56,278 nt of DNA, taken from positions 1 through 56,278 of the forward strand of contig JAJNDK010000020.1 of NCBI GenBank assembly GCA_021156365.1, read 5' to 3'. A program made the translations under genes and the position numbers. The DNA is from Bacteroidota bacterium. Its GTDB lineage: Bacteria; Bacteroidota; Bacteroidia; B-17B0; Aurantibacillaceae. Below are positions 1,950 to 26,343 of this stretch, one piece after another (positions within the stretch are counted from its first letter, which is position 1; the number at the start of each line of letters is the position of its first letter). Under the pieces are notes generated by a model. That model made no database searches, had not been told where the DNA came from, and saw only the letters and a list, made by a program, of their open reading frames with translations.

Positions 1950-3551
1950 TTATCCCAATGCCGCTTTCACAAAGCTCACGAACAATGGATGCGGATTGAT
2001 CACCGTACTTTTGTATTCCGGGTGGAACTGAACGCCCACAAAGAAAGGATGGTTAGGTAATTCAACGATCTCCACAAGCCCTGCATCCGGATTGATCCCC
2101 GACAATACCATACCTGCTTCCGTAAATTCTTTGATGTATTCGTTATTGAATTCATACCGGTGACGGTGACGTTCGTTGATCTCTTTTTTACCGTAGATAT
2201 CTATCGCCTTGGTGCCTTCTTCCAGGTGACAAGGGTAAGATCCTAAACGCATCGTACCTCCCATGTGCGAGATATTCTTTTGTGCCTCTAATATGTCGAT
2301 CACCGGGCTGCTGGTGGCAGGGTTCATTTCACGGCTGTGCGCGTCTTTCAGTCCCAATACATTACGGGCAAATTCGATCACTGCGCACTGCATGCCGAGG
2401 CAGATACCTAAGAAAGGAATGTTTTTTTCGCGGGCATATTTAATAGCAGCGATCTTTCCTTCGATCCCCCTGTTGCCAAAACCGGGCGCAACCAAAATGC
2501 CTTTCAGGTCTTTCAGCTTCTCCTGTATATTGTCTTCGGTAAGGCTTTCGGAATGGATCCAGTCCAGCTTCACCTTGCATTCGTTCATCACACCGGCATG
2601 GATAAATGCTTCTGCAATGGATTTATAGGAGTCTTTCAGTTCCACGTATTTCCCGATCAGCCCGATGCGGATCTCTTTTTTCGGATTGTGAAGCTTGCTC
2701 AGAAATTCCTTCCAGTTGTCGAGTGCCGGTTCGCCCTGCACGGCTACACCTAATTTTTTTAATACGATCACATCCAGCTTTTCTTTTTCCATGAATAGCG
2801 GAACTTCGTAGATCGTGCTTGCATCCAGCGCTTCTATAACTGCTTCGGGAGCAACGTTACAGAACAAAGCGATCTTTCTGCGGATATCTTTATTGATAGC
2901 ATGTTCGGCACGGCATACCAGTACGTCAGGCTGCACACCGTATTCCAGTAATAATTTCACCGAATGCTGGGTAGGCTTGGTTTTTAATTCACCCGAAGTG
3001 GAAAGGTAAGGCAGCAGTGTCAAATGGATCACCATACAATCTCCCGGCATTTCCCATTTCAGCTGACGAACCGCTTCGATATAGGGCAGAGATTCGATGT
3101 CACCCACTGTTCCGCCGATCTCTGTGATCACAAACTCATATTTACCTGTTTTACCAAGCATTTTGATCCGGTTTTTGATCTCATCGGTAATATGCGGGAT
3201 CACCTGCACCGTTTTTCCTAAGAATTCGCCTTTACGCTCTTTTTCGATCACGCTTTGGTAGATCCTGCCGGTAGTTACGTTATTGGCCTGCGAGGTAGGA
3301 ACCCCCAGGAAACGCTCATAGTGGCCCAGATCCAGGTCGGTTTCCGCTCCGTCGTCCGTTACATAGCATTCTCCATGCTCGTAGGGGTTCAGAGTTCCGG
3401 GATCCACGTTGATGTAGGGATCCAGTTTTTGAATGGTCGCGGAGTGCCCTCTTGCCTGAAGCAATTTGGCTAATGAAGCTGAGATGATTCCTTTTCCGAG
3501 AGAAGATGTTACACCACCGGTAACAAAGATATATTTGGTTGTTGAGGACAT
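1950..3551 (-). CDS. pyrG: CTP synthase
   Basis: Converts UTP, ATP and glutamine to CTP in the cytoplasm, the last step of de novo pyrimidine nucleotide synthesis. The 533 residues match the family length. The synthetase domain starts with the P-loop region ([13 protein letters not shown], residues 9-21) and contains the conserved [11 protein letters not shown] segment. The class I glutamine amidotransferase domain occupies about residues 290-533, with nucleophile Cys384 in GICLGMQ and the His-Glu pair in FHPEYKS near the C-terminus. The gene is single and has a perfect promoter box 23 nt upstream. Confidence 0.98.
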
Positions 3552-23618: not shown

Positions 23619-24827
23619 ATGCCGGGAACAGAATTATTCGGCGCCGAAGAGCGCAAAGAAGTAAATGATGTAATGGAAACAGGTGTGTTGTTTCGCTATG
23701 GACATGATGCCCAGCGCAACAATCACTGGAAAGCAAAGGACTTTGAAGCAGAAGTTCGGAAAATAACAGGCGCTAAATATGCGCATGCAATGAGCAGTGG
23801 TTCCACGGCTATTGCTGCGGCTCTTGCGGCAAGCGGGATCGGGACAGGAGACGAAGTGATCGTGCCCCCGTTTACCTTTATTGCCTCTGTAGAAGCAGTA
23901 CTGTTCATTGGAGCTTTGCCGGTATTTGCAGAGATCGATGAAACCCTGTGCCTCAGCGCAGAAGGAATAGAAAAAGCCATCACCCCGAAAACCAAAGGCA
24001 TTTGCCTGGTGCATATGTGCGGTGGTATGGCCGACATGGATGCGATCATGGCGGTTGTAAAAAAACACAATTTGATTTTAGTGGAGGATGCTGGACAGGC
24101 CTTTGCCGCTTCTTATAAAGGGACCTACACAGGTCTTTTCGGAACAGCCGGAAGTTATTCCTTCGATTTTTTTAAGATCGCAACGGCCGGAGAAGGCGGT
24201 GTATTTGTAACAAATGATGAAGAAGTGTATAAAAAAGCGGATGTATACAGCGATCATGGACACGATCATATCGGCAGCAACCGCGGAATGGAAAACCATC
24301 CGTTCCTGGGATTCAACTACCGCATCTCCGAACTGCATGCAGCAGTAGCTTTGGCACAAACACGTAAAGTTCCGGGAATTAAAGAAAAAAACCTCTACAA
24401 CAAAAAATTCCTGCAAAACATCCTGTCTAAAACAGAAGGAATCGGTTTTGCAAAGCTGGCTGATCCGTCCGGTGATTCGGCTACGTTCCTCAATATTTTA
24501 ATGCCAACTCCTGAAATCGCGAAAAACACTGTTGCAGAGATGAACGTAGCCGGAGTAGGTGGCTTCAATTACTGGTTCACCAATATGTATCATTTCGTAA
24601 ACCAGTGGGACCATTTGAAAAACCTGAAAACAATTTCCAAATTACCTGTGCAGGTATTGGGTGCACCGCAGGATTATAACAATCTGCAGTTGCCAAAATC
24701 ACAGGAAGTAGTCGGAAGACTGATCTCTTTCGGTGTACGTTGCACCTGGACAGAAGCGGAAATGACGACCCTTGCTGAGAAGATCTCGGCTGCAGCTGTG
24801 AAAGCGATGAAGCCGGTGAATGCTTGA
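23619..24827 (+). CDS. kdnA: 8-amino-3,8-dideoxy-manno-octulosonate (Kdo8N) transaminase, DegT/DnrJ family
   Basis: A PLP-dependent aminotransferase of 402 residues that should aminate 8-oxo-Kdo with glutamate to give 8-amino-Kdo. Recognised from the start (MPGTELFGAEERKEVNDVMETG), VPPFTFIASVEAVLF, FAEIDETLCLS, LVHMCGGMADMDAI, the PLP-lysine region SYSFDFFKIATAGEGG and YSDHGHDHIG, which closely follow the Shewanella KdnA pattern. The next intact gene is kdnB, as in Shewanella, which settles the assignment over other sugar aminotransferases. Kdo8N replaces Kdo in the inner core of lipopolysaccharide. TACTTTCG at 23592-23599 is a candidate promoter box. Confidence 0.9.
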   Translation: MPGTELFGAEERKEVNDVMETGVLFRYGHDAQRNNHWKAKDFEAEVRKITGAKYAHAMSSGSTAIAAALAASGIGTGDEVIVPPFTFIASVEAVLFIGALPVFAEIDETLCLSAEGIEKAITPKTKGICLVHMCGGMADMDAIMAVVKKHNLILVEDAGQAFAASYKGTYTGLFGTAGSYSFDFFKIATAGEGGVFVTNDEEVYKKADVYSDHGHDHIGSNRGMENHPFLGFNYRISELHAAVALAQTRKVPGIKEKNLYNKKFLQNILSKTEGIGFAKLADPSGDSATFLNILMPTPEIAKNTVAEMNVAGVGGFNYWFTNMYHFVNQWDHLKNLKTISKLPVQVLGAPQDYNNLQLPKSQEVVGRLISFGVRCTWTEAEMTTLAEKISAAAVKAMKPVNA

Positions 24828-24828
24828 G

Positions 24829-24850
24829 TTCGTCAAGCTCACTCTGACGC
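24829..24850 (-). repeat. Degenerate inverted copy of the hairpin-core repeat
   Basis: Two bases after the kdnA stop codon, TTCGTCAAGCTCACTCTGAC resembles the reverse complement of the hairpin core ATCCTGAGCTCGACGAA at 24901-24917. It appears to be a decayed inverted copy. Confidence 0.5.
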
Positions 24851-24885
24851 ACGTGTATAAAGAAAATTAGTTAACGAAATTCCAT

Positions 24886-24935
24886 ACATCACCTTTAGTC
24901 ATCCTGAGCTCGACGAAGGGGGCTAAAGGTGATGT
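24886..24935. repeat. 50-bp hairpin element with perfect 13-bp arms upstream of the GIY-YIG gene
   Basis: ACATCACCTTTAG (24886-24898) and CTAAAGGTGATGT (24923-24935) are perfect inverted repeats enclosing a 24-nt core with TCATCCTGAGCTCGACGAAG. Strings of the type 'tcatcctgagc..gaag' are widespread intergenic repeats. The element ends 15 bp before the GIY-YIG reading frame and lies outside any gene, suggesting a mobile palindrome. A mobility role is inference. Confidence 0.7.
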
Positions 24936-24950
24936 TGTAAAAAAGAGAAA

Positions 24951-25256
24951 TTGGCAAGACATTTATTTGTATATATTCTCAGGTGCGCTGATGGTTCTTA
25001 TTACATAAGTGTTACAAACAATATAGAAAGAAGATTAGAAGAACATAGTTCCGGTTTGACTGAAACCTGTTACACTTACCCAAGAAGGCCGGTTGCACTT
25101 CTCTATCAAAAAGAATTTCAAAATCCGAACGAGGCAATAGCTTTTGAAAAGCAAATTAAAGGATGGACAAGAGCTAAAAAATAAGCGCTCATAGCAGGTG
25201 ATATTGAAAAGCTGAAACAACTTTCCAAATCAAAACAAACAAGAATAGCTGATTAA
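24951..25256 (+). pseudogene. Decayed GIY-YIG endonuclease gene
   Basis: The frame from the TTG at 24951 encodes a small GIY-YIG domain: FVYILRCADGSYYISVTNNIERRLEEHSSG, then PVALLYQKEF and EAIAFEKQIKGW. Intact members read YYIG; here the Gly is Ser. They usually start with ATG and end about 25 residues later. Here an in-frame TAA at 25182 (one base from GAA) stops the frame after RAKK, yet the next 23 codons still encode the familiar tail (ALIAGDIEKLKQLSKSKQ) up to a TAA at 25254. Start, motif and length are all damaged, so I call it a pseudogene, though a short product is possible. It splits kdnA from kdnB. Confidence 0.7.
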
Positions 25257-25260
25257 TAAT

Positions 25261-26343
25261 ATGCAACACAAGAATTTCAAAAACATCGATAAAGTGACTT
25301 ACGGCCGTGGGTCTTTCAATCAACTCGCGGAAACAGTAGAGCCGGTACGTAAAGAGAACAAAAACTATTTTGTTTATGTGGTCGATAATTATTTCAAGGG
25401 CAAAGATCTGGTGAACCGCCTGCAGAACAAAGCGGAAGATCTGATCTACTACATCGATGTGGATCCGCATGAGCCAACTACTGAGCAGATAGATGCACTG
25501 CGTGATGAGATCCTTGCGAAAAAAGGATTGCCAAGTGGTGTGATCGGTATCGGCGGCGGAAGCATTATGGATATTGCCAAAGCGCTTTCCCTGATGCTGA
25601 CGAATGAAGGTTCTTCTACTTTGTACCAGGGACTGAACCTCGTGAAGAAACCAGGTATTTATCATTTAGGCGTTCCTACGATCTCCGGAACAGGAGCAGA
25701 AGTTTCCATGACTGCGGTACTTACCGGCCCTGAAAAAAAATTGGGATTAAAATGTGATTGGACCGTTTTCAACCAGGTGATCCTCGATCCGGAATTGATA
25801 GCAAGTGTACCTACCGACTGGTGGTTCTATACAGGTATGGATACCTATATTCATTGCATCGAATCGGAAAGCGGGATCCGCAACAATGCATTCAGTCTTG
25901 CCTATGGCGAGCAATCACTGAAGTTGTGCAGGGAAGTGTACCTCGGTGAACAATCGGGCAGATCAGCGGAGAATGATGATAAGCTGATGGTAGCTTCACT
26001 GATGGGCGGTCTGAGTTTGACCTACAGTGAAGTGGGGGTGTGTCACGCATTGAGCTATGGGCTTTCCAAGATACATGGAACCCGCCATTGTTATGCGAAC
26101 TGTGTAATATTCCAGCACTTGGGCGATATCTATACCAAAGGTCACGAAGAATTTATGCAGATGATCAAAAAGCATAAGATCGAACTGCCTCAGAACTTAA
26201 GCAAAGAATGGGATGATGCTACACTCACGGCTATGGCGCAGGTTTCTTACAACCTTCCGTTCATGTGGCACCATGCATTTGGCGACGACTGGCAGAAAAC
26301 AGTGAACCTCGGCTATATCAAGGATTTGTTCAGAAGATTGTAA
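25261..26343 (+). CDS. kdnB: 3-deoxy-manno-octulosonate (Kdo) 8-oxidase, iron-containing alcohol dehydrogenase family
   Basis: Oxidises the C8 hydroxyl of Kdo to an aldehyde, the substrate for KdnA. It is a 360-residue group III metal-dependent alcohol dehydrogenase. The NAD motif VIGIGGGSIMDIAKALSLMLTN lies near residues 97-118. PTISGTGAEVSMTAVL follows. Metal ligands are the Asp and His of GMDTYIHCIES and the two histidines of CHALSYGLSKIHGTRHCYANC. These blocks and the start MQHKNFKNIDKVTYGRGSF agree with KdnB of Shewanella. The ATG is 4 bp after the remnant tail of the GIY-YIG relic, so transcription probably comes from the kdnA promoter through it. Confidence 0.9.
   Translation: MQHKNFKNIDKVTYGRGSFNQLAETVEPVRKENKNYFVYVVDNYFKGKDLVNRLQNKAEDLIYYIDVDPHEPTTEQIDALRDEILAKKGLPSGVIGIGGGSIMDIAKALSLMLTNEGSSTLYQGLNLVKKPGIYHLGVPTISGTGAEVSMTAVLTGPEKKLGLKCDWTVFNQVILDPELIASVPTDWWFYTGMDTYIHCIESESGIRNNAFSLAYGEQSLKLCREVYLGEQSGRSAENDDKLMVASLMGGLSLTYSEVGVCHALSYGLSKIHGTRHCYANCVIFQHLGDIYTKGHEEFMQMIKKHKIELPQNLSKEWDDATLTAMAQVSYNLPFMWHHAFGDDWQKTVNLGYIKDLFRRL

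Follow-up and report, generated by a model that had tools for sequence, protein, structure and literature searches.

A single-domain GIY-YIG nuclease gene flanked by tagged REP hairpins in Bacteroidota: a candidate REPtron-like unit

We report a nearly certain association between genes for a small GIY-YIG nuclease and tagged hairpin repeats of the REP kind, and we posit that the two form a REPtron-like unit in which the nuclease mobilizes the hairpins, a reading to which we assign a probability of roughly 0.6. REPs are common repeats in bacterial genomes, and the pairing of a REP with an enzyme is an arrangement already known; the GIY-YIG superfamily is not known as the enzyme family of such a pair. 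The locus lies in a stretch of 56,278 nucleotides of a Bacteroidota bacterium (GCA_021156365.1, contig JAJNDK010000020.1), which we call the window. A sequence-only reading of the window had suggested that a repeat and a nuclease move together here, as REPs do with RAYT transposases, and that the enzyme belongs to a different family: the recurrent neighbor is indeed a GIY-YIG gene and the association itself stands, and nuclease-driven mobilization is the part to which the estimate above applies.

Two hairpins and the nuclease frame lie between kdnA, named as in that reading, whose product is presumably a DegT-type aminotransferase, and a downstream gene that we take to be kdnB (Table 1). Both hairpins are upstream of the nuclease gene, and there is no downstream hairpin. 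The palindrome first noticed at 24886–24935 is present with perfect 13-bp arms, which at such close spacing would be expected less than 0.1 times per 56 kb (a rough estimate made by hand), and it ends 15 bp before the TTG start of the GIY-YIG frame at 24951. It had been taken as a 50-bp element, and this view has to be given up, the repeated unit being the smaller inner hairpin. The same-genus genome G001 has, at this site, two hairpins and an intact nuclease gene between the same neighboring genes, with a counterpart of hairpin 1 at the equivalent position and one of hairpin 2 upstream of the GIY-YIG gene. Kept in the G001 hairpin are the GTCA tag, the short stem, and the TGAG...CGAA loop; the outer stem at the hairpin 2 counterpart is of other sequence and shorter (6 bp), with the 13-bp arms absent, and the repeated sequence apparently does not include these arms. 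The supposed degenerate inverted relic next to kdnA proves to be an intact hairpin on the opposite strand, matching the structural pattern exactly; it is no relic because its stem, though unlike that of hairpin 2, pairs fully (3/3 pairs). Its arm overlaps the kdnA stop codon. The idea that the core is a dispersed repeat was borne out by 20 places in the same genome with at most two mismatches, compared with 0 for a reversed-pattern control, and copies occur in this and other genomes, well beyond the locus described here.

Table 1. Positions of the hairpins, nuclease frame, and neighboring genes in the window
Feature	Position	Strand	Basis
Upstream neighbor kdnA	23619..24827	+	ORF list
REP-like hairpin 1, GTCA-GAG-TGAGCTTGACGAA-CTC	24826..24848	-	Exact structural-pattern match 24829-24848 plus 3-nt arm
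Insertion of ~420 bp between kdnA and the putative kdnB (two hairpins and GIY-YIG gene)	24828..25250	+	Ends approximate
Outer palindrome around hairpin 2	24886..24935	none	13-bp arms, 100% complementary, 24 nt between (inverted-repeat search)
REP-like hairpin 2, GTCA-TCC-TGAGCTCGACGAA-GGG	24898..24920	+	Exact structural-pattern match 24898-24917 plus core match
GIY-YIG single-domain nuclease frame, UPF0213/Slx1-like	24951..25184	+	PF01541 E 1.8e-16; in-frame TAA 25182-25184
Rest of GIY-YIG reading frame past the stop	25185..25256	+	In frame, similar to intact G001 gene
Downstream neighbor, gene after kdnA (putative kdnB)	25261..26343	+	ORF list; present in 56/61 family genomes

A comparison by eye of 25 spacers between these two neighbors reveals presence and absence of the insertion at an orthologous site: the nuclease gene and hairpins are found in two (G001 and G000, the genome of the window), in 16 of the remaining 23 the genes are no more than about 15 bp apart, two of the 25 contain a hairpin doublet of another type without the nuclease, and the remaining spacers have neither. 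The ends of the insertion are approximate, since the spacers of the nearest genomes differ too much. Among the core loci of G000 compared with G001 and G002, the kdn locus is the only clearly shared orthologous one; two weaker matches (34% and 38% identity) resemble paralogues. In G016 (L130) and G037 (L153), kdnA is followed by additional DNA with open frames, and the downstream spacer of kdnA is therefore a recurrent insertion site. The kdnA gene of the other-genus genome G020 (L129) is 92% identical to that of the window and that of the same-genus G001 is 78% identical, a difference that makes transfer of the kdn genes between lineages possible.

Judged from its aligned copies, the repeat is a tagged hairpin of the form TGTCA-XYZ-TGAG-N5/6-CGAA-Z'Y'X' with a covarying stem. 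The profile comprises 164 unique copies with a 13–14-nt TGAGC...CGAA loop located at most 700 bp from the gene, and the 80 loci behind it were fetched using the GIY-YIG protein alone. The 5' box is conserved in these copies (T 71%, G 92%, T 92%, C 92%, A 91%) and provides an unpaired tag of the CGTC/TGTC/CCTC type at one end of the hairpin, as in CGTC REPs; the A at position -4 is kept, yet it is paired in just 48% of the 164 copies. Stem pairs 2 and 3 are complementary in 91% and 79% of the copies versus 36% and 31% in shuffles, with G-C, C-G, A-T, and T-A pairs all occurring, and the innermost stem pair is complementary in 89% versus 69%. Across lineages the loop reads TGAG-N-nn(n)-N'-T-CGAA. 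The N-N' pair of five-nucleotide loops is complementary in 78 of 88 cases (C-G 50, G-C 17, T-A 11), compared with a mean of 38 and a maximum of 50 in shuffles; in six-nucleotide loops the inner pair is complementary in 78 of 82, compared with 75 in shuffles, and provides no covariation signal because it hardly varies (C-G in 77 of 82). From known nucleic-acid chemistry, tandem sheared G.A pairs might form between TGAG and CGAA. Neighboring hairpins at most 150 bp apart, counted over the loci collected, include opposite-orientation dimers (-+ 67, +- 45) as well as pairs in the same orientation (++ 22, -- 26), and copies within the genus of the window are mostly single when judged by eye. An Rfam search gave two sub-threshold matches, which we take as chance.

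Hairpins are concentrated beside the nuclease genes. In the 80 loci fetched by protein, their density is 6.55/kb at 0–100 bp from the GIY-YIG gene, 2.17, 0.29, and 0.05/kb at 100–300, 300–1000, and 1000–3000 bp, respectively, and 0.014/kb at 3000–10000 bp. The enrichment of the core next to GIY-YIG genes across genomes is strong, with a hairpin within 500 bp of the gene in 63 of the 80 unfiltered loci, and reversed and shuffled motifs near these genes gave almost nothing. The link is not visible from the genome of the window alone, where the core lies within 1.5 kb at one of the eight GIY-YIG loci examined. A sample of 149 genomes of the class contained 78 with a match to the nuclease profile, and all 123 matches were examined. 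With the matches split at 94 and 111 bits, values chosen after seeing the scores, a hairpin lies within 500 bp in 29 of the 53 matches of at least 94 bits (24 are without one) and an exact hairpin in 8 of the 70 below 94 bits (62 are without one); the density around the matches of at least 94 bits is 4.6/kb within 100 bp and 0.018/kb at 2–6 kb. Many of the class-sample genes without the exact hairpin have hairpins of other types, as judged by eye and by k-mer enrichment. A motif-free test covering 119 of the 123 matches, rows with less than 100 nt of flank being left out, found inverted repeats on both sides of the gene (score of at least 12) at 61 of the 119 GIY-YIG genes and at 3 of 225 control positions, with 58 genes below score 12. 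For the strong, middle, and weak bit-score classes, the counts are 22/38, 5/14, and 34/67 genes and 0/64, 1/27, and 2/134 control positions.

The relationship extends to the level of whole genomes. At least five hairpins are present in 42 of the 78 genomes with a nuclease match versus 6 of the 71 without (Fisher p 2e-9, not corrected for relatedness). Among the latter, the one-contig genome G099 holds 250 hairpin copies, yet the nuclease profile finds nothing in it at E <= 1e-4, and G121 (25 copies), G105, G161, and G084 contain 9–25 copies each with no nuclease-profile match. Loop types were compared for 126 proteins, 96 of them with a typed loop: the type is uniform in 72 of the 80 loci having two or more typed hairpins, and its distribution on the protein tree involves 30 changes, compared with 42 or more in 100 shuffles. 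The agreement between loop type and protein tree is only partial, far from perfect.

The arrangement of the hairpins around the gene is biased in orientation. In a subfamily of 70 loci, which was chosen after seeing the data and omits L114–L122 and L126 (loci free of hairpins out to 500 bp), the closest hairpin upstream, up to 350 bp away, is in the + orientation in 40 and - in 14, the nearest downstream hairpin is - in 40 and + in 9, the full inverted bracket is found in 29, and neither side has a hairpin in 8. The downstream hairpin begins at most 20 bp from the stop codon, or overlaps the end of the gene, in 27 of 49 cases; with the limit set at 50 bp the count is 38 of 49. Two paralogues in G177 are 86% identical over 488 bp, and on the left side the common sequence begins 4 bp outside the GTCA tag and runs inward; on the right, the comparison stops where one contig ends. 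Among 61 nuclease pairs of at least 75% identity, which are not independent of one another, 36 share their flanking DNA and 25 differ in it, and movement of the gene is therefore not frequent.

The nuclease consists of one domain of about 95 residues and matches PF01541 at 60.6 bits (cut-off 22.6). A model of the L080 protein has a mean pLDDT of 92.9, and Foldseek with the predicted structure places UPF0213 first (1zg2, E 2.5e-6), followed by Slx1 (E 3.7e-3); Slx1 is a weak match by profile (E 0.01) as well as by Foldseek (E 0.004). A search of NCBIfam with three family members assigned no family. Columns Y7, Y17, R27, H31, and E65 are invariant in alignment A2 (32 sequences, that of the window left out), and we take these to be the catalytic residues. 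Values of dN/dS between 0.05 and 0.15 in 11 nuclease pairs, a twelfth being saturated, indicate purifying selection. In the window, nuclease profile A1 matches at 24957–25241 with 151.5 bits across one TAA; given this in-frame stop at 25182 and a second motif that reads YYIS, without the Gly of YYTG/YYIG in relatives, the gene has probably decayed and this copy is probably inactive. Other GIY-YIG genes adjoin tRNA genes (Met, Pro, His, Asp, Ser) at 8–85 bp in five of the eight loci scanned, which include L002 1501–1713 (C19), L003 1501–1701 (C10), and L007 1501–1641 (C9) in the genome of the window as well as L118 and L122; the far sides of L007 and L002 show apparent partial tRNA copies by eye. 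These genes are possibly a sister system that uses tRNA ends in place of REPs.

Within the genus of the window, an outer stem of 6 bp or longer encloses 28 of 38 copies (18% in shuffles, maximum 32%), these stems differ between sites, and 18 of the 28 nested copies have a run of T or A alongside, that is, a terminator-like hairpin with the REP in its loop. We considered such placement as a general rule, which is unsupported outside the genus: in the 80 loci, 26 of 143 hairpins near GIY-YIG genes are in an outer stem (shuffles 15%) and so are 2 of 28 far from them (shuffles 11%). Nested placement does appear in G099, where each of the 30 copies examined (L321–L350) is a doublet and 22 of them have a second palindrome of the CGTCATTGCGAGG type around them on both sides. 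Of 30 family loci with a spacer between what we take, from the protein ends, to be rpoB and rpoC, 26 are predicted to form a hairpin in that spacer and 5 have a REP loop, of different types; by a rough estimate, random sequence of that length would yield about half of one match to the loop motif. A second hairpin family with CCCTCTCC/GGAGAGGG-like arms occurs in the same spacers (L363, L366, L369, L377, L378) and also elsewhere in the genome of the window (L009).

Related genes are present in 39 plasmid records, of which we examined 12. The plasmid loci of two Methylobacterium, Rhizobium, S. meliloti, Shinella, and Planktothrix have motif-free scores of 12–44; Spirosoma (11), Sphingomonas (8), and Sinorhizobium C101 (7) are below the threshold, with hairpin-like repeats seen beside them by eye. 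Because two controls from the same records reached 13 and 18, scores of 12 and 11 are weak. Flanking repeats recur at the nuclease genes of Alphaproteobacteria and Cyanobacteria plasmids, with hairpins of other types. Three Bacillota plasmid loci, of which two belong to a yazA-type operon, reach 8, no different from controls. On plasmid p1 of Planktothrix agardhii (L319), the GIY-YIG gene and its adjoining hairpin repeats lie between an MmeI-type restriction gene and DISARM drmA.

In the mechanism that we propose, the small UPF0213/Slx1-like nuclease, whose gene is flanked, often on both sides, by hairpins that fit the CGTC/TGTC super-family, would recognize the hairpin by its GTCA tag, 3-bp variable stem, TGAG/CGAA part, inner pair, and 2–3-nt apex and would process it as branched or single-stranded DNA. 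The nuclease may thus cut the hairpin and cutting may drive copying, mobilizing the flanked gene of the nuclease itself and, in trans, solo hairpins and doublets. Entry into a loop may be the insertion step, with the loops of hairpin-forming DNA (terminators, other REPs, and the rpoB–rpoC spacer) as favored targets in at least some lineages. Against this mechanism stand the probably decayed gene of the window, the 24 of 53 stronger profile matches that lack the hairpin, and the 250 copies of G099 with no nuclease match, together with full brackets at only 29 of 70 subfamily loci, the infrequent movement of the gene, and the partial agreement of loop type with the protein tree. The main rival, which we consider unlikely, is homing: the nuclease would cut palindromes or hairpins with no REP in the loop, which would then be filled by repair templated on an occupied copy at another site, making the nuclease gene a selfish homing gene and the REPs its marks. 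GIY-YIG homing endonucleases are known, and the Slx1-like fold, the same-genus copies in stems that vary from site to site, the REP loops in 5 of 30 rpoB–rpoC spacers, and the nested REPs of G099 are consistent with such a process; yet repair from a donor needs similarity around the cut, and the differing stems around the copies argue against it.

Another enzyme might instead spread the REPs, with the nuclease gene carried along or surviving best in REP-rich spacers. We regard this as more doubtful than homing: REP-rich genomes with no detected partner, such as G099 and G121, fit such a passenger role, whereas the tight spacing of the downstream hairpins, the orientation bias, and the finding that nuclease genes on plasmids of Alphaproteobacteria and Cyanobacteria again have flanking repeats, with other hairpin types, argue against it. 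The absence of a hairpin within 1.5 kb of any of the 30 best Y1_Tnp loci in relatives counts against it as well, and more so against a RAYT (Y1 transposase) as the mover of the hairpin, as with GTAG REPs. The similar size, the combination of tag and hairpin, the inverted doublets, and the presence in 40 of 60 relatives of Y1_Tnp genes (the class to which RAYTs belong) would suit a RAYT; with those 30 loci empty and a tag of GTCA, not GTAG, we dropped this largely contradicted candidate, which has almost no probability left. We also find it very improbable that the partnership is at the RNA level, the protein binding or cutting RNA hairpins, autoregulating its own mRNA, and controlling transcripts through terminator hairpins. 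Hairpins immediately before the start or after the stop of many nuclease genes, and the many same-genus copies within terminator-like stems, would be expected of such a regulator, but the conserved 5' tag outside the stem, the inverted bracketing, and the orthologous presence and absence resemble a mobile element, and the Slx1 proteins that share the fold are nucleases of branched DNA according to the titles of solved entries. We therefore retain mobilization by the nuclease as our preferred reading.

Several known systems resemble this unit. GIY-YIG homing endonucleases share selfish spread by a GIY-YIG nuclease; in our case we see no intron or intein, the protein is one domain of about 95 residues, and the link is to hairpin repeats. 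UPF0213 proteins (BH0048, EF2693, YazA) and, weakly, Slx1 match in fold and profile, but the three UPF0213-like Bacillota plasmid genes lack flanking inverted repeats and Slx1 partners with Slx4 (by solved-entry titles) and is not known to be linked to repeats. REPtrons of GTAG REPs and RAYTs, together with REPINs, likewise have an enzyme gene flanked by its hairpins and dispersed solo or paired copies, but there the enzyme is a Y1 HUH transposase and the tag GTAG, whereas here a PF01541 gene adjoins GTCA-tagged hairpins with a different loop and the 30 best Y1 loci are free of them, which places the unit outside that class. Small GIY-YIG proteins are often annotated as excinuclease ABC, and part of the nuclease link may for this reason already sit in the tables of the original survey of CGTC REPs. 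In that survey, the genes that contain REPs include some for excinuclease ABC proteins (Di Nocera, De Gregorio and Rocco 2013; PMC3733652).

Its main text defines the CGTC-tagged REP super-family, with TGTC and CCTC variants, as mostly intergenic repeats and inverted doublets of Bacteroidetes and many Alphaproteobacteria, modeled with a stem of 8–9 bp starting with A-T pairs, a loop of 4–5, and a CCA tail (PMC3733652). In our data the stem has three covarying pairs, and this tail is visible in the Shinella and Rhizobium plasmid copies and absent from the Bacteroidota profile. According to the same text, CGTC REPs "apparently lack a dedicated transposase" and flank no tyrosine transposase gene, which agrees with the 30 best Y1_Tnp loci here; small tagged hairpins and inverted doublets are the other shared features, and the difference is that the main text reports no dedicated enzyme, whereas a GIY-YIG nuclease gene is the recurrent neighbor in our loci. 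Because its authors examined transposase genes and omitted hypothetical proteins of fewer than 120 residues from the intragenic set (PMC3733652), a nuclease of ~95 residues could have been missed. The term GIY is absent from that main text and from the text of PMC6006769 and PMC8266576, and a full-text search, excluding most subscription journals and all bioRxiv preprints, gave, among the articles listed, none that by title or abstract links GIY-YIG genes to these repeats. Short DNA words of the core appeared, among the matches listed, in what by titles and abstracts are apparently unrelated primers.

Given this record, we consider the small nuclease the best candidate partner of CGTC/TGTC REPs. 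We also advance, tentatively and at somewhat less than even odds, the broader proposal that single-domain GIY-YIG nucleases are the missing mobilizing enzymes of these REPs in several phyla and that, as structure-specific nucleases, they place tagged hairpins within the loops of hairpins already present (terminators or other REPs, for instance) by a chemistry of transposition or homing as yet undescribed in bacteria. GTAG REPs, one large class, have a known partner in RAYT, and the other large class, CGTC REPs, now gains a concrete candidate enzyme, so that a ~95-residue protein and a 25-nt hairpin suffice to put its open question to the test. Should the nuclease be the mover, the superfamilies known to disperse small mobile DNA in bacteria would include a further nuclease superfamily, which would help explain why many hairpins in the genus of the window lie within terminator-like stems.
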